Source of the DNA: a virus
Reading direction: 5' to 3' (one strand)
DNA: 64,000 nt
IMG/VR virus record: IMGVR_UViG_3300035670_000050
Coordinates: 56,164-120,163 of that record
Shown here piece after piece: positions 16,244 through 28,462 of this stretch. The notes under the pieces were generated by a model that had not been told where the DNA came from, did no database searches, and was given only the letters and a program-made list of their open reading frames with translations. Every line of letters begins with the position of its first letter. Position 1 is the first letter of the stretch. Both the position numbers and the translations under genes were made by a program.

Positions 16244-17425
16244 ATGGGGTTTTATACTAAAGATGGTGGTTTAATTGGAACAGGCCAAAAAAATAGTTTT
16301 ACTGGTGTTGGAGATTTACATTTAAAATTTTTAAATTCATCTTCAACATTAGATGTTGGTACTGGTTTTTCATTAACAAGTGGTACAGCAATAGTTAATA
16401 CAATAGTTGTACAACCTGATGGTAAATTATTAGTTGGAGGAAATTTTGATACCTATAAAGGAACCACCCAAAATAGAATAGTTAGATTATTGCCTAATGG
16501 CAGTGTAGATACTACTTTTAATCCAGGCGGTTCTGGTTTTGATTCTGTAGTATCAGATATTGTTTTGCAACCTGATGGTAAAATATTAGTTGGAGGAAAT
16601 TTTAATGGTTATAATGGCGTCCAACAGATTCGTTTTTTAAGATTAAATAGTGATGGCACATTAGACACATCTTTTAATACTGGTGGAATTGGACCTACAG
16701 GACAAGTTCAAACTATTTTTTTACATTCAACTGGAAAAATATGGATTGGTGGAGATTTTCAATTTTATAATGGAGTGAGTGCTAATAGAATAGCAGGATT
16801 AAATAGTGATGGAACAAGAGATACAACTACTTTTAATTTTGGTGGAGGTGCTAATGGTACAGTTTTTAAAATAACAAGCACATCTTCCAGTCAATTTATT
16901 GTTGTTGGTAGTTTCACACAATTTAATTCTATTACTAGAAATTATAATGTTAGATTAAATTATGATGGTAGTGCAGTTACTTCTTATACATACAATTCTA
17001 GTATTGTAAATTCTTTAACAATATCAAGCACTGAAATATATTTCACTGGAAATTTTATTGCTGGAAATGCTAGAGGTCTTAGCCGAAGAATAGGTGCTAC
17101 TCTTGTCGAAGATACAACTTTTAATAGTAATATTGGTACAGGTTCTGACGGGGGAACTGTATCTGGTGTGCATATACAACCTGATAATAAAATATTAGTT
17201 TATGGTTATTTTGGTGCTTTTAATGGTATTACTCACGGAAGATTATTTAGATTGAACTCTGATGGTACTTTAGATACGAACTTTAATATAGGAACTGGTT
17301 TTAATAACGCTGTTGCTACATTAGTTTTAAAACCAGGAACAACCAAAACATTTTATGTTGGCGGACAGTTTACAAGTTTTAATGGCACTAGTTATAACAG
17401 ATTAGCAGAATTGACATTCCTATGA
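16244..17425 (+). CDS. Delta-60 repeat beta-propeller protein, seven repeats
   Basis: A 393-residue protein built from ~50-residue delta-60 repeats with consensus QPDGKILVGGNFxxYNG, xxxRLNSDGTLDTSFN. Repeats 1, 2 and 6 are clear (VVQPDGKLLVGGNF, VLQPDGKILVGGNF, HIQPDNKILVYGYF); 3, 4, 5 and 7 are degenerate. The last repeat breaks off at RLAELTFL, while the N-terminus supplies the missing strand (LHLKFLNSSSTLDVGTGF). Together they would close a seven-bladed propeller. Delta-60 proteins are mostly bacterial surface or secreted proteins; here the context makes it a likely receptor-binding fibre head. The last 4 nt overlap the next gene (ATGA). Confidence 0.8.
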   Translation: MGFYTKDGGLIGTGQKNSFTGVGDLHLKFLNSSSTLDVGTGFSLTSGTAIVNTIVVQPDGKLLVGGNFDTYKGTTQNRIVRLLPNGSVDTTFNPGGSGFDSVVSDIVLQPDGKILVGGNFNGYNGVQQIRFLRLNSDGTLDTSFNTGGIGPTGQVQTIFLHSTGKIWIGGDFQFYNGVSANRIAGLNSDGTRDTTTFNFGGGANGTVFKITSTSSSQFIVVGSFTQFNSITRNYNVRLNYDGSAVTSYTYNSSIVNSLTISSTEIYFTGNFIAGNARGLSRRIGATLVEDTTFNSNIGTGSDGGTVSGVHIQPDNKILVYGYFGAFNGITHGRLFRLNSDGTLDTNFNIGTGFNNAVATLVLKPGTTKTFYVGGQFTSFNGTSYNRLAELTFL

Positions 17426-19178: not shown

Positions 19179-19622
19179 ATGAGTTTATATAGTTATAAAG
19201 GTGGTTATCCAAGTTCTTTACCAGACAGGATTAGATTGTCTAATGGTTTGACTCGTACAGAAAAAAACACTTTCACAGAAGAAGAAATTGCTAATGCTGG
19301 TTATGTTTTAGCTGAAGACCCACCAATTCATAATGAAAGACAAAGACTTGTATGGTCAGGTACAACTTGGCAAATTGTAGATTTCTCAGAAGAAGAGATA
19401 GCAGAAATAGTTGAAAGAGAATGGCAAACGATAAGATTCAAAAGAGACGAAAAGATAAAAGAAGTTGAATGGAGATTATTTAGATATCAGTCTCAAATTA
19501 GATTGGGAATACCAACAGATGACAGTCCAGAAGAGATAAATAAGATAGATGTCTATATACAAAACTTACGAGATGTGACAAATCAAAATGATCCATCTAA
19601 CATAGTATGGCCGACTTTATAA
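19179..19622 (+). CDS. Tail assembly chaperone-like protein
   Basis: A 147-residue protein with Shine-Dalgarno AAAGGAG. The N-terminal half is a short beta unit (SYKGGYPSSLPDRIRLSNGL, RLVWSGTTWQIVDFSEEEI). The C-terminal half is helical with RFKRDEKIKEVEWRLFRYQS, then INKIDVYIQNLRDVTNQNDP and VWPTL. This ending (RxxxLxxxxxR..Y.QxLRDxxxxxxPxxxxWP) is characteristic of phage tail assembly chaperones (Phage_tail_APC / XkdW type) that act on fibres. It lies directly in front of the kelch fibre set and so may assist its assembly. Confidence 0.65.
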   Translation: MSLYSYKGGYPSSLPDRIRLSNGLTRTEKNTFTEEEIANAGYVLAEDPPIHNERQRLVWSGTTWQIVDFSEEEIAEIVEREWQTIRFKRDEKIKEVEWRLFRYQSQIRLGIPTDDSPEEINKIDVYIQNLRDVTNQNDPSNIVWPTL

Positions 19623-19666: not shown

Positions 19667-21973
19667 ATGATCAGATTAAGTAATTTTTTAGGCAGCACTT
19701 ATGTTGGAGTATCAGGTTATTCTGGGTACTCTGGCGTTTCGGCAGAAGGTGGCCAAGCTGACCTTTCTCAAATAATGGAAGATGTTGTTCCAGCAATTGA
19801 TGGTGTATATGACATAGGTCTATCAACTAACTCTTGGTACAACATATATTTGAAAAATGGAATTTACTTTGAAGAGATAAATCTTTTGGCAGATCAATCA
19901 GTTTCTACAGAAATTCAAGATGTAGAAACTGATGTACAAGTATTAATTGCAGCATGGTCAGTTGGTGGTGATTTAATTACAGGTAGAATGTTTCATGCTG
20001 GTGCTGGTACTCAAGATGCAGCATTAGCTTTTGGTGGTCAATCTAGTGATTATCTATCCTCAACAGAAGAATACAATGGTACATCATGGTCAGCTGGTGG
20101 TAATTTAATTCAAGCTAAAGATGATTTAGCTAGTGCTGGTACTCAAGATGCAGGATTAGCTATTGGTGGCCAAACTGATGGTGGTTTTCAATTCTCAACA
20201 GAAGAATATGATGGTACATCATGGTCAGCTGGTGGTAATTTAATTACAGCTAGAGGCTGGAATGCTGGTGCTGGTACTCAAGATGCAGGATTAACTTTTG
20301 GTGGGAATAACACTTATCTATCCTCAACAGAAGAATACAATGGTACATCATGGTCATCTGGTGGTAATTTAATTACAGCTAGATCAAATCATGCTGGTGC
20401 TGGTACTCAAGATGCAGGATTAGCTTTTGGTGGGTATAGTGTTGACAATTATCTATCTTCAACAGAAGAATACGATGGTACATCATGGTCAGCTGGTGGT
20501 AGTTTAAGTACAGCTAGATCAAGTCATGCTGGTGCTGGTACTCAAAATGCAGGATTAGCTTTTGGTGGTATTGCTAATTATACATATTTTTCCTCAACAG
20601 AAGAATACGATGGTACATCATGGTCATATGGTGGTTATTTAATTGCAGGTAGAGCCTGGCATGCTGGTGCTGGTACTCAAGATGCAGCATTAGCTTTTGG
20701 TGGTGATAGATATAACACTAGTTATGTATCCTCAACAGAAGAATATAATAAAAGTCTAACAACTATAAAAGAGTTGGTACCTACTGAAATAGAAGTTGTT
20801 ACTCCTTTATTAAACATTAACTCTGACATATCTGTTAAAGATATTTTTGGTGAAAACATTTTTGGTACTTCATTGGTATTGACCGATATTGTTATTGTAG
20901 ACAATGTTATCACACCAATAAACACTCAGTTATATGCCACTCCAGAAATTATTGTTGACGGAGGAATAACAGTTTCTTCGACTAATCCAACATATTTAAA
21001 ATTTAATCAAATAGTTCCATCTGAAACAACTGAACCATTTGAAATGAATCTTAATACATCTGTAGTTGAAGCTAATGGAACTGCAACTACAAATGATGAA
21101 TGTATTAATATAGTTTTAAATATGGACACTCTGTATCCTCAAATTGGTGTTACAGATAGAACTTCAAGAATGTGGATATATGCACCAACTGGCACTTTCA
21201 CAACAACCAAATCATTTGACGATTTAGTGCCTGGTGAGCTGTATGATATTACTATCCCTACTGTCTATTATTCTAGTCAATATCCAAGTTTTTTACAGAA
21301 TAGAAGTTCTCCAACAACAATACAATTAGAATTTGTAGAAAAAATTGATAATTATCTAGGTTTCTTTGATGCTTTAGAATTTAGAATTCCACCAGAACTT
21401 ACAGAACTATACAATACTCCATCAGATGCAGCATTAACTGTTGTGACGAATCAACCAGCAACTAATTATATCATAACAATTTATCAAAGTGAGTCAACAA
21501 CATTTGATTATTCTATTTTAGACACATACGGTTCAGAAGGAATGTTCAGATATAATCCACAAACAAAAGGATTTGAAGGACATAATGGTACAGAATGGGG
21601 ACCAATTGGAGGTAGTGTAGACCTTGATTGGGCCAATATGACCAATAAACCTGATCCAGTCATAACAGTTACACTTACTGGAGATGTTACAGGTACAGCT
21701 AATACGACATTAACAGATTTAGCATCTGGTACAATTTCTGTTGCAACATCAGTTACATTATCATATTCAAGACAAAAATTTACTGGTAATGGTACTACAA
21801 CTTCTTTTTCATTATGGGAATCTGGAAGAAATGTTGATAATATTTTAGTATTTGTGAATGGTCTTTGTTTTGAACCAACTGAAGATTATACTGTAAGCGG
21901 TACTAGTTTAGTGTTTGTAGAAGCTCCAAGCGCTCAAGCTGAAATTGTCGTAAGATATCTTCCTATTTTATAG
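19667..21973 (+). CDS. Kelch-propeller tail fibre A, 768 aa
   Basis: Domain order: a short GYSGYSG collagen-like stub (~14-24); a fibre base motif (AIDGVYDIGLSTNSWYNIYL, ~43-62); six kelch-like repeats (~98-364); then a ~400-residue C-terminal fibre region including GMFRYNPQTKGFEGHNG, EWGPIGG and DVTGTANTTLTD, and a terminal beta domain (KFTGNGTTTSFSLWESGRNV). Repeat consensus is GGNLITARxxHAGAGTQDAA, then LAFGG, a variable loop, and STEEYNGTSWS, matching kelch logic (R-x-x-H-A, GG, Y, W). It is the only one of the four paralogues with a long C-terminal extension, so it is probably the anchored member of the set. Confidence 0.75.
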   Translation: MIRLSNFLGSTYVGVSGYSGYSGVSAEGGQADLSQIMEDVVPAIDGVYDIGLSTNSWYNIYLKNGIYFEEINLLADQSVSTEIQDVETDVQVLIAAWSVGGDLITGRMFHAGAGTQDAALAFGGQSSDYLSSTEEYNGTSWSAGGNLIQAKDDLASAGTQDAGLAIGGQTDGGFQFSTEEYDGTSWSAGGNLITARGWNAGAGTQDAGLTFGGNNTYLSSTEEYNGTSWSSGGNLITARSNHAGAGTQDAGLAFGGYSVDNYLSSTEEYDGTSWSAGGSLSTARSSHAGAGTQNAGLAFGGIANYTYFSSTEEYDGTSWSYGGYLIAGRAWHAGAGTQDAALAFGGDRYNTSYVSSTEEYNKSLTTIKELVPTEIEVVTPLLNINSDISVKDIFGENIFGTSLVLTDIVIVDNVITPINTQLYATPEIIVDGGITVSSTNPTYLKFNQIVPSETTEPFEMNLNTSVVEANGTATTNDECINIVLNMDTLYPQIGVTDRTSRMWIYAPTGTFTTTKSFDDLVPGELYDITIPTVYYSSQYPSFLQNRSSPTTIQLEFVEKIDNYLGFFDALEFRIPPELTELYNTPSDAALTVVTNQPATNYIITIYQSESTTFDYSILDTYGSEGMFRYNPQTKGFEGHNGTEWGPIGGSVDLDWANMTNKPDPVITVTLTGDVTGTANTTLTDLASGTISVATSVTLSYSRQKFTGNGTTTSFSLWESGRNVDNILVFVNGLCFEPTEDYTVSGTSLVFVEAPSAQAEIVVRYLPIL
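19955..20757 (+). repeat. Six kelch-like repeats in fibre A
   Basis: Six ~43-47-codon units. Framework segments such as GCTGGTGCTGGTACTCAAGA and TCATGGTCAGCTGGTGG recur almost unchanged in the DNA, while 4-10 codons after each FGG vary in sequence and length. Confidence 0.9.
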
Positions 21974-21984
21974 TAAATAAAAAA

Positions 21985-22998
21985 ATGTCTAAAGCTAGAA
22001 AATTTGCAAACAGTATTTATGGTAATGGTCCTGTTGGTATTCCTTTAGTTAAAAGGTCTACTGATTATGAACCAAATTCAAGCAACAATGCTTTAATATG
22101 GTATAACACAACTGAAAACAAATTAAAGTTTATAGAACTCTATTTCGATGGATATCATATTCGTACAATAGTTCCACAAACTAAAATTTGGACTTATATA
22201 TCCAATATGATCAGTAGTAGGAATACTCATCGTGGTTCTGGCACTCAAAATGCAGCACTAGCTTTTAGTGGTCGGATTGTTTGGGACTATACAAACACAA
22301 CAGAAGAATATAATGGTATAACATGGTCAGCTGAGGGTAACATAATTACATCTAGAATATATTTCGCTGGAACTGGTGGTCCAAACGCAGCATTAGCTAT
22401 TGGTGGTTGGGATGTTAATAGTAATACATTAAACTCAACAGAAGAATACAATGGTACATCATGGTCAGCTGGTGGTAATTTAATTACAAATAGGTTTAGG
22501 AATGATGCTACTGGCACTCAAGATGCAGCATTAACTTTTGGTAATGCTGGAGTAACCTCAACAACAGAAGAATATAATGGCACATCATGGTCAGCTGGTG
22601 GTAATTTAGTTACAGGTAGAAATGTACCTTCTGCTGCTGGTAGTCAAGATGCAGCATTAGCTATTGGTGGTACTTTTAGTAATGCACCTTATCTTACATA
22701 CTCAACAGAAGAATACAATGGTACATCATGGTCAACTAGCACTAATACCAATCGAGCTCGAGTAGAAGCAAATGCGTGTTCTTTAAATATAGATCAAACT
22801 ATTATTTATGGAAGTATTACATATGTTGAAGTTACTTGGGGGTCAAATATTGTAGAAGAATATGATGGCATATCATGGACAAATACTAGTACATTATTAT
22901 TTCGAGAAACTAACAATTATGATAGAACTGGAGCATCTCATGGATCAAAAACAGCTGCTTTACATTCAGAAACAACTAGAAGTATGGTTTATAATTAA
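21985..22998 (+). CDS. Kelch-propeller adhesin B, 337 aa
   Basis: A short N-terminal docking segment (SKARKFANSIYGNGPVGIPL) is followed by NNALIWYNTTENKLKF, a fibre-base motif, then six blade-sized units from about residue 66 to the end. Units 2-4 are close to the kelch consensus. Units 1, 5 and 6 are degenerate (the last two lack the GAGTQDA core and read NACSLNIDQTIIYGSITYVE and GASHGSKTAALHSETTRSM). No C-terminal domain follows, so the propeller is the tip. It follows fibre A by 11 nt with no strong Shine-Dalgarno. Confidence 0.75.
   Translation: MSKARKFANSIYGNGPVGIPLVKRSTDYEPNSSNNALIWYNTTENKLKFIELYFDGYHIRTIVPQTKIWTYISNMISSRNTHRGSGTQNAALAFSGRIVWDYTNTTEEYNGITWSAEGNIITSRIYFAGTGGPNAALAIGGWDVNSNTLNSTEEYNGTSWSAGGNLITNRFRNDATGTQDAALTFGNAGVTSTTEEYNGTSWSAGGNLVTGRNVPSAAGSQDAALAIGGTFSNAPYLTYSTEEYNGTSWSTSTNTNRARVEANACSLNIDQTIIYGSITYVEVTWGSNIVEEYDGISWTNTSTLLFRETNNYDRTGASHGSKTAALHSETTRSMVYN
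22183..22995 (+). repeat. Kelch-like repeats in adhesin B (six, two degenerate)
   Basis: Six units by length; repeats 2-4 share the TCAACAGAAGAATACAATGG framework with the other paralogues. The last two have decayed or been replaced. Confidence 0.8.
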
Positions 22999-23012
22999 AT
23001 AAAGGAAAATAT

Positions 23013-23321
23013 ATGAAATATATTCAAGCAATAAATACTGGTAAAGGTTTTATCACTCATCAAGACAGAGAACTTGGTCATTTTAGTGGGCATGCTGGAA
23101 ATATTTACGCTGTTGCTGATAATGTTGCATTAGAATGGAAAAATAGAGTTAATGGCGTTGAAAAAACTTTAGAAGAAGCTCAAAATATATGTTTAGAGTC
23201 TATGCAAACCAATTGGGATGAACAGTTTAATTTAGTTATAGAGAACGAAACAGATGAGATGAAAAATAGAAGAATACAAATGTTAGGTGAAAGACCAACA
23301 TCTGTCGATTTGCCTGTTTGA
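23013..23321 (+). CDS. Small protein between kelch adhesins, unknown
   Basis: A 102-residue protein with Shine-Dalgarno AAAGGAAA. Text: KYIQAINTGKGFITHQDREL, AGNIYAVADNVALEWKNRV, EKTLEEAQNICLESMQTNWD. The N-terminal half looks beta and the C-terminal half helical, with a final proline-rich tail. In size and position (before a fibre pair) it parallels the tail assembly chaperone-like protein at 19179, so a fibre chaperone role is a reasonable guess. No family is recognised. Confidence 0.55.
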   Translation: MKYIQAINTGKGFITHQDRELGHFSGHAGNIYAVADNVALEWKNRVNGVEKTLEEAQNICLESMQTNWDEQFNLVIENETDEMKNRRIQMLGERPTSVDLPV

Positions 23322-23332
23322 AATAATAAAAT

Positions 23333-24364
23333 ATGGGAACAATTACCAGAAAATTTGCAAGCAAAATTCGTGGAGAAAGTTCATCTTTTATTCTTAGAAA
23401 TGTATTTTTTTATGATTTAAATGACAGAAAATTTGGTCAGGTGTTAACCTATAATATTGGTGATAACCTAAGATATGTATCTGGAAAAAGATTACCTGGA
23501 ACATGGTCAACTGGTGGTAATTTAATTCGATCCAGAATTTCTGCTGCTGGTGCTGGTAATCAAGATGGAGGATTAGGATTAGCTTTTGGTGGGCTTGATT
23601 TTTTTGCTAGAAACTCATCAGAAACATATAATGGCACAATATGGATATCCCGTGGTAATCTAATTACAGCTAGATATGATCATGCTGGTGCTGGTACTCA
23701 CGATACAGCATTACTTTTTGGTGGGACATCTACTGTTGATTTTACCATTACATCCTCAACAGAAGAATATAATGGGTTTTCATGGTCAACTGGAGGTAAT
23801 TTAATTACAGCTAGATATGATCATGCTGGTGCTGGTACTCAAGATGCAGCATTAGCTATTGGTGGGATATCTGGTGTTACTTTTACCGTTACATCCTCAA
23901 CAGAAGAATATAATGGTACATCATGGTCAACTGGTGGTAATTTAATTCAAGCTAGATATAGTCATGCTGGTGCTGGCACTCAAGATGCAGGATTAGCTAT
24001 TGGTGGGATTCCTTCTAATGTTGTTGGTAATTCAACAGAAGAATACAATGGTACATCATGGTCAGCTGGAGGTAATTTAATTACAACTAGATATAGTCAT
24101 GCTGGTGCTGGTACTCAATATGCAGGATTAGTTTTTGGTGGGTATTATTTTAGTGATCTATCCTCAACAGAAGAATATAATGGTACATCATGGTCAACTG
24201 GTGGTAATTTAATTCAAGCTAGATATGAACATGCTGGTGCTGGTACTCAATATGCAGCATTAGCTTTTGGTGGGTATATTAGTGGTTCATCATCTAATTC
24301 AACAGAAGAATACTCAATTACTGCTAATACTGATCTATTCGAACAAATTTTTTTATCAGAGTGA
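23333..24364 (+). CDS. Kelch-propeller adhesin C, 343 aa
   Basis: The N-terminus GTITRKFASKIRGESSS is a close relative of that of adhesin D (GVITRLLAKEI) and a looser relative of adhesin B, suggesting a common docking peptide. A fibre-base strand (FYDLNDRKFGQVLTYNIGD) precedes six well-conserved kelch-like repeats (~residues 56-328), each TGGNLIxARYxHAGAGTQDA, LAxGG, variable loop, STEEYNGTSWS. A short tail (NTDLFEQIFLSE) ends the protein. Likely a six-bladed receptor-binding head. Confidence 0.78.
   Translation: MGTITRKFASKIRGESSSFILRNVFFYDLNDRKFGQVLTYNIGDNLRYVSGKRLPGTWSTGGNLIRSRISAAGAGNQDGGLGLAFGGLDFFARNSSETYNGTIWISRGNLITARYDHAGAGTHDTALLFGGTSTVDFTITSSTEEYNGFSWSTGGNLITARYDHAGAGTQDAALAIGGISGVTFTVTSSTEEYNGTSWSTGGNLIQARYSHAGAGTQDAGLAIGGIPSNVVGNSTEEYNGTSWSAGGNLITTRYSHAGAGTQYAGLVFGGYYFSDLSSTEEYNGTSWSTGGNLIQARYEHAGAGTQYAALAFGGYISGSSSNSTEEYSITANTDLFEQIFLSE
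23500..24316 (+). repeat. Six kelch-like repeats in adhesin C
   Basis: Six units of ~44-47 codons. Units 2 and 3 share GCTAGATATGATCATGCTGG exactly, indicating recent duplication or conversion inside the gene. Confidence 0.9.
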
Positions 24365-24367
24365 AAA

Positions 24368-25402
24368 ATGGGCGTTATAACACGATTATTGGCAAAAGAA
24401 ATTTCAAATACTAATTTAGAAAATTCTAGTTTGGTAAATAGTTATATTGGCGATATGCCTAATCCAACTGTATCTGATATTGGCGATATTTTTTATAATA
24501 TGTCTACAGGTAAAATAAAGGCGGTAGGTTTAATTTTAAATTATGCTATAACTCAAACATGGTCAACTAGTGGTAATTTAATTCAAGCTAGATTAGAACA
24601 TGCTGGTGCTGGTACTCAATATGCAGCATTAGCTTTTGGTGGTTTTGCTAATTATAATAGTGGTTTTACTCGTTTATCCTCAACAGAAGAATACAATGGT
24701 ACATCATGGTCAGCTGGTGGTAGTTTAATTACAGGTAGATATAAACATTCTGGTGCTGGTACTCAAGATGCAGGATTAGCTTTTGGTGGTTTTGATATAA
24801 ATAATGCTTATCTATCCTCAACAGAAGAATATAATGGTACATCATGGTCAGCTGGTGGTAATTTAATTACAGGTAGATATGAACATGCTGGTGCTGGTAC
24901 TCAAGATGCAGGATTAGCTTTTAGTGGTTTTAACTCCAGTGGTCTGTTATCAACCTCAACAGAAGAATACAATGGTACATCATGGTCAGCTGGAGGTAAT
25001 TTAATTACAGGTAGGTATTCTTTTGCTGGTACTGGTACTCAAGATGCAGCATTAGCTTTTGGTGGTTGGGCTAGTGGTCTTACACTCTCAACAGAAGAAT
25101 ACAATGGTACATCATGGTCAGCTGGTGGTAATTTAAGTACAGGTAGAGATTCTCTAGTTGGTGCTGGTACCGCAGACGCAGGATTAGCTTTTGGTGGTTA
25201 TAATTGGGGTCGTCTTTCATTAACAGAAGAATACGATGGTACATCATGGTCAGCTGGTGGTAATTTAATTCAAGCTAGAGTAGAACATGCTGGTGCTGGC
25301 ATTCAAAATGCAGCATTAACTTTTGGTGGGGATAGTTTTGGTTATCCATCATCTTCAACAGAAGAATACAATCAAATTGTACCTGCAATAAATACAATAT
25401 AA
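24368..25402 (+). CDS. Kelch-propeller adhesin D, 344 aa
   Basis: It starts 3 nt after adhesin C. An N-terminal docking peptide (GVITRLLAKEISNTNLENSS) and fibre-base motif (NPTVSDIGDIFYNMSTGKIK) lead into six kelch-like repeats (~residues 64-335) with the framework GGNLITGRYxHAGAGTQDAG, LAFGG, variable loop, STEEYNGTSWSA. Framework similarity to A and C is very high at the DNA level, while the loops after each FGG (FANYNSGFTRLS, FDINNAYLS, WASGLTLS and so on) differ. It ends in QIVPAINTI. Confidence 0.78.
   Translation: MGVITRLLAKEISNTNLENSSLVNSYIGDMPNPTVSDIGDIFYNMSTGKIKAVGLILNYAITQTWSTSGNLIQARLEHAGAGTQYAALAFGGFANYNSGFTRLSSTEEYNGTSWSAGGSLITGRYKHSGAGTQDAGLAFGGFDINNAYLSSTEEYNGTSWSAGGNLITGRYEHAGAGTQDAGLAFSGFNSSGLLSTSTEEYNGTSWSAGGNLITGRYSFAGTGTQDAALAFGGWASGLTLSTEEYNGTSWSAGGNLSTGRDSLVGAGTADAGLAFGGYNWGRLSLTEEYDGTSWSAGGNLIQARVEHAGAGIQNAALTFGGDSFGYPSSSTEEYNQIVPAINTI
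24560..25372 (+). repeat. Six kelch-like repeats in adhesin D
   Basis: Six units. The 20-base framework words GAAGAATACAATGGTACATC and TCATGGTCAGCTGGTGGTAA recur within this gene and in adhesins A-C. Confidence 0.9.
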
Positions 25403-25428: not shown

Positions 25429-26148
25429 ATGGAAAACAACAATGAATTGCGTAATATAATACCAACTTTTGCCAATCAAAAAGAATTTTTAATTAATATT
25501 CTTGATGAAGACGATTTCTCTAAATTGGTAAAACTCAAAGACGAACTAAAAGATACATGGTCCAAAAAACAAATTTTTAGAACTGAAACGGAAATGAGAG
25601 TGTCGGTTTTAAATGATGCTAAATTTCCAACTAATGCATCAAAATATTGGCAATGTGTCCGTGAGCAAAATGCTTTTTTTGAAACTACAATGCAACTTTC
25701 TTTTGAATATCGTAAAAACGAAATAGAGATTAAAAAACTTCAAAGAAATTTAGAAAAAGAAGAAGATGAATTAGAGAAAGAACTTATTCAAATTGAAATT
25801 GAACAAAAACTTTATGGTAGAGCCAACATGCAATTAGTTGCTAAAGATAGAATTCGTGAACTTGATCTTTGGTCTAAAATAAAAGCTGAACTTGATGATG
25901 GTTCTTTTGACACACAAAATGTAAATACACATCAAGAAGAATCTTTATTGTTGACTCTACAAAATAGAGCAAATATGATCTCACCAAATGCAGCTCCAGC
26001 TGAAGTCATGAATATTTTAGGACCATTAAAAACTGCTCAAAGAATTTCTACAGAAAAAACTCAAGAAAATTTAAAGTTGTCAACAGTAACAAATAATTTA
26101 AATACTTTTACTTTGAAAGATTTAAATAAAGAGTATATTCAAAAATGA
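25429..26148 (+). CDS. Conserved coiled-coil protein, unknown
   Basis: A 239-residue protein with Shine-Dalgarno-like AGGA. The centre (~residues 90-145) is a charged helix (EIEIKKLQRNLEKEEDELEK), preceded by YWQCVREQNAFFETTMQLSF. The C-terminus is polar. No catalytic or membrane signature is visible. Proteins of this size and layout occur near fibre and neck genes of marine T4-like phages and are usually labelled hypothetical or virion structural. It overlaps the glycosyltransferase downstream by 4 nt. Confidence 0.6.
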   Translation: MENNNELRNIIPTFANQKEFLINILDEDDFSKLVKLKDELKDTWSKKQIFRTETEMRVSVLNDAKFPTNASKYWQCVREQNAFFETTMQLSFEYRKNEIEIKKLQRNLEKEEDELEKELIQIEIEQKLYGRANMQLVAKDRIRELDLWSKIKAELDDGSFDTQNVNTHQEESLLLTLQNRANMISPNAAPAEVMNILGPLKTAQRISTEKTQENLKLSTVTNNLNTFTLKDLNKEYIQK

Positions 26149-27698
26149 TACCTAATATATTATGGCAAACTTGGAAAACTGAAGATATTCCAAAGTCTTT
26201 AAAGAATCAATACAATTCTTGGAAGTATAGTAATCCACATTTAAAAAGAAAAATTAGTAGTGATGAAATGTGTTCTGCTTTTATATTACAGAATTTTGGA
26301 GAAGAAGTGCATAGGTTGTATGAATCATTGCCACAACCAATTATGCGAGCAGATTTTTGGCGTTTAGCAGTAATTTATATTTATGGAGGTTACTATTCAG
26401 ATTTGGATGTTACTTGTAAGAAAAATTTAAATGAGTTTGTAAATGGTAAAGTAAAAGCAGTATTCATGAAAGAATTAGACAACATAGCTAATTTCTTTTT
26501 TGGAGCTGAAAGAAATCATCCAGTTTTAAAATTAGCATTAGACTATATGATTGAAGAAGCAAAATCAATAACAGATAAAGATACACAATCATATGGTATG
26601 CATAATTTACATCGAGCAGTGCGTGAATACTATTCTGTTATAGGAAATAATTATATTGACAATGAAGATGTTCAATTTTTAAATAATGAATTACTAATAG
26701 AAAAAAATATTTTTATTCATCATGCAGCTAGTAATATGAATCATTTAAATGATTATGATTCTTGGAGAATGTCTAATTTAATAATGCAAGAAAAAAGAAA
26801 CCAATCTAACAATATATTATTTTTTACAACATTTAATGAAAATGGTTTTTTATTGTATGGTAAAAAATGGATAGAAACATTTATACAAGTTTCAAATTTT
26901 TATACTTCTTTTAAAGCTAAAATTTATTATGAAGGAAATGTACCACAAATAAATCATCCTAATATCACATATGTAGATTTTAATACAGAAATACCACATC
27001 ATGACAGTTGGAAAAAAGAATTGAGAAAAAAATCAAAACATGCTGATTATGTAAAAACAATGATAGAGAGATTTAGTTATAAATCTTTTGTTATTCAAGA
27101 TGTATTACAAAAACATAATGACGATTATTTAATTTGGCTTGATGGAGATTGCGTATTTAAACAAGCCGATTATACAAATTTTCCAAAAAATATTTTGGGA
27201 GATAATTTTTTAGCTTGTCAAGTAGAAGAAAATTGGGATTTAAATCATGTTGAAAGTGGTATTTTAATTTTTAATGGTAAACATAATGACATTAAAATAT
27301 TCAATGAAGCTTTTATAGAAAATTATAAATTTGAAAGACTTCTTCCTATGGGTGAACCATATGATGGATTTGTAGTTTTTAAGTCATTAAAAGAAACTGA
27401 TTTAAAATATGTAAATTTAAATTCCAAGTATGGTAAAGGAGGAATACAGTCTGATCCTAACTGTACTTTTCAACACCCAGAAATTAAATCTAAATTTATA
27501 CACAATATTGGTTGGACTGGTAAAAATCAATATGAAAATTGGGATAGAATTTTCAGAATTGACGATACTTATAAAAAAATGAAATCATTTTTGTTTGGTA
27601 ATCCAAGTAATTCATCTGAAGAAATGAAAAAACGCAAAACAAAAATTGAATCTCTGTTAAATAAAAAAGGTAGTTTTTTATCTTCAAAAAAATTATGA
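26145..27698 (+). CDS. Two-domain glycosyltransferase (GT32-like N-terminus)
   Basis: A 517-residue protein with two glycosyltransferase-like parts. N-terminal domain: PNILWQTWKTEDIPKSLK, RADFWRLAVIYIYGGYYSDL and the DLD motif at 86-88 are typical of the DXD sugar-binding family (GT32, Och1-like). C-terminal domain from ~residue 222 (NNILFFTTFNENG) has DDYLIWLDGDCVFK, a second candidate nucleotide-sugar metal site, and resembles phage GT-A proteins. It sits between adhesin genes and neck genes and is coupled by 4-nt overlaps on both sides. Targets could be virion proteins or host glycans; the sequence does not decide. Confidence 0.78.
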   Translation: MIPNILWQTWKTEDIPKSLKNQYNSWKYSNPHLKRKISSDEMCSAFILQNFGEEVHRLYESLPQPIMRADFWRLAVIYIYGGYYSDLDVTCKKNLNEFVNGKVKAVFMKELDNIANFFFGAERNHPVLKLALDYMIEEAKSITDKDTQSYGMHNLHRAVREYYSVIGNNYIDNEDVQFLNNELLIEKNIFIHHAASNMNHLNDYDSWRMSNLIMQEKRNQSNNILFFTTFNENGFLLYGKKWIETFIQVSNFYTSFKAKIYYEGNVPQINHPNITYVDFNTEIPHHDSWKKELRKKSKHADYVKTMIERFSYKSFVIQDVLQKHNDDYLIWLDGDCVFKQADYTNFPKNILGDNFLACQVEENWDLNHVESGILIFNGKHNDIKIFNEAFIENYKFERLLPMGEPYDGFVVFKSLKETDLKYVNLNSKYGKGGIQSDPNCTFQHPEIKSKFIHNIGWTGKNQYENWDRIFRIDDTYKKMKSFLFGNPSNSSEEMKKRKTKIESLLNKKGSFLSSKKL

Positions 27699-28462
27699 AA
27701 GACAATATCGTTATAGTAACTGGAGGTTTTGACCCCATTCATTCTGGGCATATTTCTTATATACATGATGCTCAAAATTATGGAAGAGTTGTTGTGGGTG
27801 TTAATAGTGATGAGTGGTTGATAAAGAAAAAAGGCCAAGCATTCATGCCATTTGAAGAGAGAATTAATATAGTTAAAAATATAAAGGGCGTGATGTTGGC
27901 GATAGGTTTTAATGACTCTGATGGATCTGCTTGTGATTCTATCTCTGTAGTAAAAAGTATGTTCCCAAAACAAAAAATCATATTTGCAAATGGTGGAGAT
28001 AGAACAAAAACCAACATACCAGAAATGAATAATTTTAAAGACGATCCTCAAGTAGAATTTAAATTTGGTGTAGGTGGCGAAAATAAAAAGAATAGTTCTA
28101 GTTGGATATTGTCTGAATGGAAACACCCTACCGAAAATAGAGTATGGGGTAAATTTATGACATATTATGATTCTAAAACAACAAAGATTAAAAGATTGAT
28201 ATTGGAACCTGGCAAATCAATTTCAATGCAATACCATGAAAACAGAAATGAGTTTTGGTTTGTTGAAGAAGGGTTTGGTAAAATAACGACATTGATTAAT
28301 GACGAAGAAGTTTTAGTAAAAAATATTCAAAAACATGACAGTTATTTCGTTGAACTTAAAAAATGGCACAGGTTAGAAAATGTAGGTAAAGATAATTTAT
28401 GTATTATTGAAATACAGTATGGAAAAGAATGTATAGAAGAAGATATTATTAGAAAGCTTTAA
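27695..28462 (+). CDS. Cytidylyltransferase-cupin fusion (nucleotide-sugar enzyme)
   Basis: A 255-residue protein. Residues ~5-140 form a nucleotidyltransferase of the TagD/RfaE-C type: TGGFDPIHSGH with the HxGH motif at 16-19, VVGVNSDEWLIKKKG, FMPFEERINIV, and an SSSW segment equivalent to the family's C-terminal signature. Residues ~149-255 form a cupin like the C-terminal domain of mannose-6-phosphate isomerase (WGKFMTYYDSKTTKIKRLIL, SMQYHENRNEFWFVEEG, KKWHRLENVG), with likely metal ligands in QYHENRNE and KWH. The fusion suggests activation of a sugar phosphate with a coupled isomerase or epimerase step, feeding the glycosyltransferase upstream. The substrate is unknown. Confidence 0.8.
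   Translation: MKDNIVIVTGGFDPIHSGHISYIHDAQNYGRVVVGVNSDEWLIKKKGQAFMPFEERINIVKNIKGVMLAIGFNDSDGSACDSISVVKSMFPKQKIIFANGGDRTKTNIPEMNNFKDDPQVEFKFGVGGENKKNSSSWILSEWKHPTENRVWGKFMTYYDSKTTKIKRLILEPGKSISMQYHENRNEFWFVEEGFGKITTLINDEEVLVKNIQKHDSYFVELKKWHRLENVGKDNLCIIEIQYGKECIEEDIIRKL

Follow-up and report, generated by a model that had tools for sequence, protein, structure and literature searches.

Receptor-binding proteins set the host range of phages, and most of those encoded by aquatic phages carry no annotation. Two elements relevant to the locus described here are already known: phages can encode kelch proteins (PMC5259590), and propellers serve as phage receptor-binding domains (PMC7048315). In each blade of a kelch domain, a Gly-Gly pair closes strand B, a Tyr lies in strand C and a Trp in strand D (PMC4668279); in Keap1 and KLHL20, ligands bind to a face built from the DA and BC loops (PMC4668279, PMC6720452). 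Kelch has been mentioned for a cyanophage (PMC3037559) and for phage CBB (PMC5259590) and is enriched in long marine reads (PMC9238414), none of these studies describing the cassette reported below. No description of a cassette joining kelch genes to the two partner genes called s and c was found in the open-access literature, subscription journals lying mostly outside the search.

The stretch of DNA analysed here (the window) comprises 64,000 nt, positions 56,164-120,163 of the 120,163-base IMG/VR record IMGVR_UViG_3300035670_000050. T4-like features of the record include the tail sheath and tube, the portal and major head protein, the terminase and the neck genes; the sheath shares 45-49% identity with its counterparts in phages of Pelagibacter, Methylophilales, Stenotrophomonas and Ochrobactrum. 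Four kelch genes, g1 to g4, lie with s and c in an array (g1-g2-s-g3-g4-c) that runs entirely on the plus strand with intergenic gaps of 3-26 bases, between baseplate/fibre genes on one side and neck genes on the other. With a probability of roughly 0.8, the four genes form the variable core of a receptor-binding cassette through which a T4-like myovirus recognises hosts with multiple heads. The coordinates and gene calls of the first-pass annotation were correct, and the features are as follows:

19179..19622, plus strand: tail fibre assembly chaperone (Phage_tail_APC), directly upstream of the array (PF16778, E=1.4e-8; phrog_4912 tail fiber assembly, E=1.3e-9)
19667..21973, plus strand: g1, 768-aa fibre-like protein with a short collagen-like GYSG stretch, an N-terminal fibre region, six kelch blades (~19955-20749) and a ~400-aa beta-rich fibre-like C-terminus
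21985..22998, plus strand: g2, 337-aa kelch protein, propeller region ~22189-22995, final two blades degenerate
23013..23321, plus strand: s, 102-aa cassette partner, predicted compact alpha/beta domain
23333..24364, plus strand: g3, 343-aa kelch protein, short N-terminal domain followed by six blades (~23504-24325)
24368..25402, plus strand: g4, 344-aa kelch protein, short N-terminal domain followed by six blades (~24560-25375)
25429..26148, plus strand: c, 239-aa partner, last gene of the cassette in most relatives
26145..28462, plus strand: sugar genes downstream of the array, namely the next two entries
26145-27698, plus strand: DXD glycosyltransferase (PF04488, E=2.1e-14)
27695-28462, plus strand: cytidylyltransferase and mannose-6-phosphate isomerase/cupin (PF01050, E=9e-20; PF01467, E=1.2e-9)

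Predicted Six-Bladed Kelch Propellers

A unit HMM trained on relatives alone, with no window sequence, was applied to the window ORFs and recovered 23 of the 24 kelch units. It found no further units anywhere in the window: none of the other ORFs scored, and a shuffled-protein control gave 0/1000 at E<=0.01. Six units each were detected in g1, g3 and g4, with domain E-values from 2.6e-10 to 2e-21 (2.6e-10 to 2e-20 for g3). In g2, four units are strong (E ~1e-14), the fifth has E=0.039 and a sixth-unit remnant E=12. The count of exactly six units per gene given by the first-pass annotation thus holds for g1, g3 and g4 and is approximate for g2, with four clear and about two degenerate units. 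Counted from its first Trp, g2 runs for 269 residues to its end, as against 272 in g4, and this length, together with the degenerate blades, is the basis for assigning it six. Units are mostly 42-49 residues long. In three of the genes, a lone WS.GGNL strand stands ahead of blade 1 and the final blade stops at TEEY without TSW, a combination that is, as read from the protein sequences, the signature of velcro closure.

Across 2107 units, Trp occupies position 1 in 100%, Gly positions 27 and 28 in 86% and 96%, and Tyr position 40 in 83%, which reproduces the GG/Tyr/Trp kelch pattern. Pfam kelch models score the window proteins below threshold (best Kelch_1 15.4 bits, gathering cut-off 20.1). 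The cut-off is a criterion of the database and says nothing on structure, and the low scores probably reflect divergence, as the sequence profile of the family reaches the solved kelch domain of KLHL12 at 3.9e-17. A blade-wise NGT motif was considered as an N-glycosylation sequon and rejected: Asn is replaced by Asp in 42% of units, so that a beta-turn explains the motif better.

The first-pass annotation had proposed structure prediction of the monomers and an HMM search with the repeat unit. The search recovers the units as given above, and an AlphaFold2 model of g4, built with 56 related sequences, closes as a six-bladed propeller with a pLDDT of 88.7 over the whole chain and ~98 in the propeller. 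The model contains one lone strand (63-67), five full four-stranded blades and a sixth without its outer strand; the lone strand is predicted to complete blade 6, which is velcro closure as in kelch domains. The closest PDB folds found by Foldseek are the designed SAKe6 (1.1e-19), followed by KLHL12 and Keap1 (~1e-17), and the kelch domains of NS1-BP and LZTR1 are also among the top matches. A closed six-bladed ring is thus supported for g4 by this high-confidence model and its fold and profile matches, and for g1-g3 by sequence homology, in agreement with the fold that had been suggested from repeat counts.

Independent evidence comes from unit counts among relatives. A g4 scan of IMG/VR viral contigs gave at least 599 matching stretches, and a DNA pattern for EEYNGTSW, blind to repeat number, supplied a second sample. 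Pooling both gave 269 dereplicated complete proteins from other viral contigs, with 6 units in 149, 12 in 55, 11 in 24, 5 in 14, 10 in 6, 18 in 5 and 30 in one. The counts peak at 6, 12, 18 and 30, and 7 is absent. Counts of 9-11 in the EEYNGTSW sample mostly involve one-unit-long gaps, as missed degenerate units would give, and loci reached through s or c peak again at 6 and 12. Multiples of six would be hard to explain unless each set of six forms one closed ring. In a few loci (L121:5202-7187, L183:8955-9940, L091:102-1583), adjacent short ORFs each encode no more than about half a propeller, with two to four kelch units, which may reflect assembly frameshifts, decaying genes or two-chain propellers.

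Kelch propellers had been described in the first-pass annotation as rare among the receptor-binding heads of phages. This is wrong for environmental phages, where the family is very common in IMG/VR; it is nearly missing from cultured phages, the g4 query matching 1 of 50,697 isolate records and the kelch sequence of locus L025 none. The sole PHROG family that strongly matches all four proteins is phrog_27227 (E=1.2e-44 to g1, across its kelch part), which also matches the L025 kelch and is labelled 'unknown function', with no annotation as kelch, propeller or tail. Scanning 84,980 cellular genomes yielded 13 loci, almost all on MAG or single-cell contigs, and a cellular origin was rejected on these numbers. 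Two single-cell contigs, one of 275 kb from SAR11 (L288) and one from Pelagibacteraceae (L283), contain s, kelch and c; they hint at SAR11 as one of the host groups, or else at co-sorting of viral DNA.

Tail-Fibre Setting and Domain Fusions

The array sits in a tail-fibre module, with fibre genes and the fibre chaperone upstream and neck genes downstream. A comparable placement is seen in relatives. In Paenibacillus phage phiERICV, a kelch gene lies directly behind those for baseplate J and tail protein I, where P2-like phages usually have their tail-fibre gene. Phage HTVC027P has a tail-collar gene after a homologous tail protein, at the point where L025 carries an array of three kelch genes. 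The g1 C-terminus matches the T4-like kelch loci L085 and L182. Three genes upstream, at 16244-17425, lies the gene for a second, unrelated propeller protein (DUF5122, matched over six stretches at E=1.6e-60), giving the fibre region of this phage two propeller types.

Several relatives fuse kelch to known fibre domains. A collagen shaft, kelch and a Peptidase_S74 chaperone are combined in a single protein at L093:5179-9138; kelch is fused to S74 in L047 and to collagen in L022 and L010. Evidence of fusion in the window is confined to the short collagen-like stretch of g1. The kelch proteins may be trimeric, as the fusions of relatives to S74 and collagen suggest. The host-recognition role put forward by the first-pass annotation is well supported by gene position, domain fusions and the loop hypervariability described below, from which we infer the role itself.

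Loop Variability and Gene Exchange

The ligand face is hypervariable, as seen in unit entropy, in strain pairs and in dN/dS within the window. Entropy maxima fall at unit positions 12-14 and 29-36 (n=2107 units), which correspond to the DA and BC loops. In four pairs of related loci (L057/L074, L068/L134, L008/L077 and L025/L105), flanking proteins are 94-99% identical (99.0, 97.8, 95.8 and 94.4%) and kelch proteins 64-67% (63.7, 66.9, 66.3 and 65.1%). These pairs may match non-orthologous kelch genes, in which case whole-gene replacement adds to the divergence. The pair L156/L193 combines one kelch gene at 98% identity with another at 49%, which indicates that kelch genes are exchanged one by one. 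The closest cassette relative, L291, has sugar genes 67-69% and c 76% identical to those of the window, with kelch at just 43-55%.

Among the window units, framework dS is 0.18 and loop dN ~1.5, and synonymous sites in the loops are also far diverged, a pattern suggestive of block-wise replacement of loop segments in addition to point selection. Framework synonymous codons are nearly identical across g1-g4 (19955-25375), with 10-13% differing against 54% expected. In most relatives, the framework codon difference is 0.41 within an ORF as against 0.48 between contigs. Concerted evolution of the framework as a family-wide rule was rejected since most relatives show no such codon sharing, and the window array is therefore better seen as a recent expansion or homogenisation.

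The Cassette and Its Partner Genes

The array had been characterised as four kelch genes side by side. The four genes are indeed present, and they are one case of a conserved cassette with s and c, which the first-pass annotation did not notice. A typical cassette contains 2-4 kelch genes and the two partners, usually ordered kelch(s)-s-kelch(s)-c, and the window order, kelch-kelch-s-kelch-kelch-c, conforms to this. By tblastn, 88 of the 185 kelch loci contain a relative of s; an HMM finds one in 105 loci, and relatives of c occur in 98 kelch loci. Among the 80 best matches of a search from s alone and of one from c alone, using alignments derived from kelch loci, 79 (s) and 74 (c) had a kelch gene no more than 5 kb away. 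Paired adjacent s-family genes occur at L146:12539-13130, L127:8109-8691, L107:441-1029 and L101:1867-2443.

The s protein is modelled by AlphaFold2 as a compact domain (pLDDT 93.9) and matches no PDB fold at E<=0.001; no known family or fold could be assigned to it, as there was no convincing match in Pfam, PHROGs or the PDB. For c, there was likewise no convincing PDB match, and just a weak match to phrog_1409. Neither s nor c matches any of 50,697 phage records. It is proposed that s is an assembly factor or adaptor, and s and c together most likely serve propeller assembly or attachment.

The cassette does not appear to be tied to one phage lineage. Kelch, s and c are absent from 80/80 T4-like loci fetched through the neck gene, 26 of which have at least 4.8 kb of upstream sequence. 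None of these 26, the closest T4-like relatives that reach far enough upstream, has the array, so it is accessory in this phage. A divergent T4-like contig (L021) has its own array of three kelch genes immediately upstream of the neck genes. Further carriers look podovirus-like, with one tail protein related to that of the pelagiphages HTVC023P/027P, and a relative of the window sheath is detectable in just 3 of the 20 carrier records tested.

Downstream of c, the window encodes a glycosyltransferase and a sugar nucleotidyltransferase, and L291 has the same glycosyltransferase/cytidylyltransferase-cupin pair behind its s and c genes. In L025, L034, L042, L062 and L108, c is followed by sulfotransferase, APS-kinase-like, cytidylyltransferase-like and 2OG-Fe(II) oxygenase genes (Pfam on the L025 and L034 genes). 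A link between the genes after c and glycan modification or disguise is possible.

Probable Receptor-Binding Cassette and Alternative Explanations

In the proposed mechanism, g2-g4 would each form a closed six-bladed kelch propeller atop a short N-terminal domain, and g1 a propeller built into a longer fibre. The tail-fibre/baseplate apparatus would carry several propellers that differ in specificity and use the DA and BC loop face to bind molecules on the host surface, as kelch domains bind their ligands in other settings. The beta framework would stay nearly fixed as loops and entire kelch genes are swapped fast by recombination, and s and c would travel with the propellers for assembly or attachment. 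We infer presence in the virion, simultaneous display, receptor binding and the functions of s and c, as well as the 'switchable' and 'multivalent' character earlier ascribed to the array. Uncultured water phages probably use the kelch cassette to recognise bacterial hosts. We also lean, by a little, towards a broader proposal: that a [kelch]n-s-[kelch]n-c cassette is widespread and moves horizontally among phages of different tail types, supplying several rapidly exchanged six-bladed heads together with dedicated assembly or attachment proteins, s and c, unseen in cultured phages.

The kelch proteins could instead decorate the virion surface, in the manner of whiskers or capsid decorations, and mediate general adhesion to surfaces or glycans with no role in host specificity. 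Phage CBB encodes kelch proteins, one of which was detected in virions by mass spectrometry, and its authors discuss CBB-specific genes alongside its tail whiskers (PMC5259590); the many kelch copies per genome also fit decoration. However, collagen shaft and Peptidase_S74 fusions point to specific recognition, kelch genes occupy the tail-fibre slot in phiERICV and in relatives of HTVC027P, and the hypervariable loops cluster on the ligand face, which makes decoration unlikely. An intracellular function as protein-binding adaptors, like that of eukaryotic BTB-kelch or poxvirus kelch proteins, is suggested by the nearest solved natural folds, which are KLHL substrate domains. This is highly improbable given that no BTB or other partner domain was found on the kelch proteins with Pfam, that the genes lie inside a structural operon, that relatives carry fibre-domain fusions, and that hypervariability between strains is an expected property of surface proteins.

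The origin of the loop diversity has to be considered separately. Hypervariable positions inside fixed frameworks would suit a diversity-generating retroelement (DGR), and phage receptor-binding proteins are known DGR targets (PMC10743442), so that the array might represent another DGR-driven receptor-binding system. No reverse transcriptase (RVT_1) was found in the 120-kb record itself or in 20 related records, the control genomes run with the latter being positive; all of these records may be incomplete. Moreover, loop lengths in the window units range from 4 to 11 residues, and DGR substitution does not alter length. The DGR mechanism was rejected because reverse transcriptase is absent from the records searched, and it is the least probable of the alternatives. 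Recombination of loops and whole kelch genes within a receptor-binding cassette remains the preferred explanation.

Comparison with Known Systems

The kelch proteins of CBB and of giant Pseudomonas and Yersinia phages (PMC5259590; BFVD matches PhiPA3, Noxifer and PS119XW) are likewise six-blade propellers, several per genome. They share only ~10-23% identity with the window proteins in the fold search and belong to a jumbo-phage setting, for which neither the partner genes s and c nor counts in multiples of six nor hypervariable loops have been reported. At least one CBB kelch protein is in the virion. The receptor-binding protein of Staphylococcus phage phi11/80alpha (PMC7048315) also presents a propeller, termed a 'platform', as its proposed glycan-binding head; in contrast to the array of near-identical propellers in the window, it has five blades and is a trimer with stem and tower domains encoded by a single gene. 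The tail fibre and chaperone modules of Alteromonas phages (PMC10579305) similarly represent a host-recognition module with a chaperone common to distant phages; in the portion of that report available, no kelch array is reported, and s and c are apparently not included. Outside phages, the BTB-kelch domains of KLHL12, KLHL2 and Keap1, together with SAKe6, have the same six blades, GG/Tyr/Trp pattern, terminal-strand closure and DA/BC binding face, but share ~20-26% identity with the window kelch proteins, which have no BTB domain and a different biological setting. For aquatic phages, the family can now be recognised by its fold, defined as a cassette and traced through two marker genes, and the regular geometry of six blades with two variable loops each makes loop-based host prediction a testable idea. 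Relative to these systems, the new elements are the cassette, the s and c families, the multiples-of-six rule, as seen in hundreds of proteins from environmental phages, and evidence for hypervariable heads.
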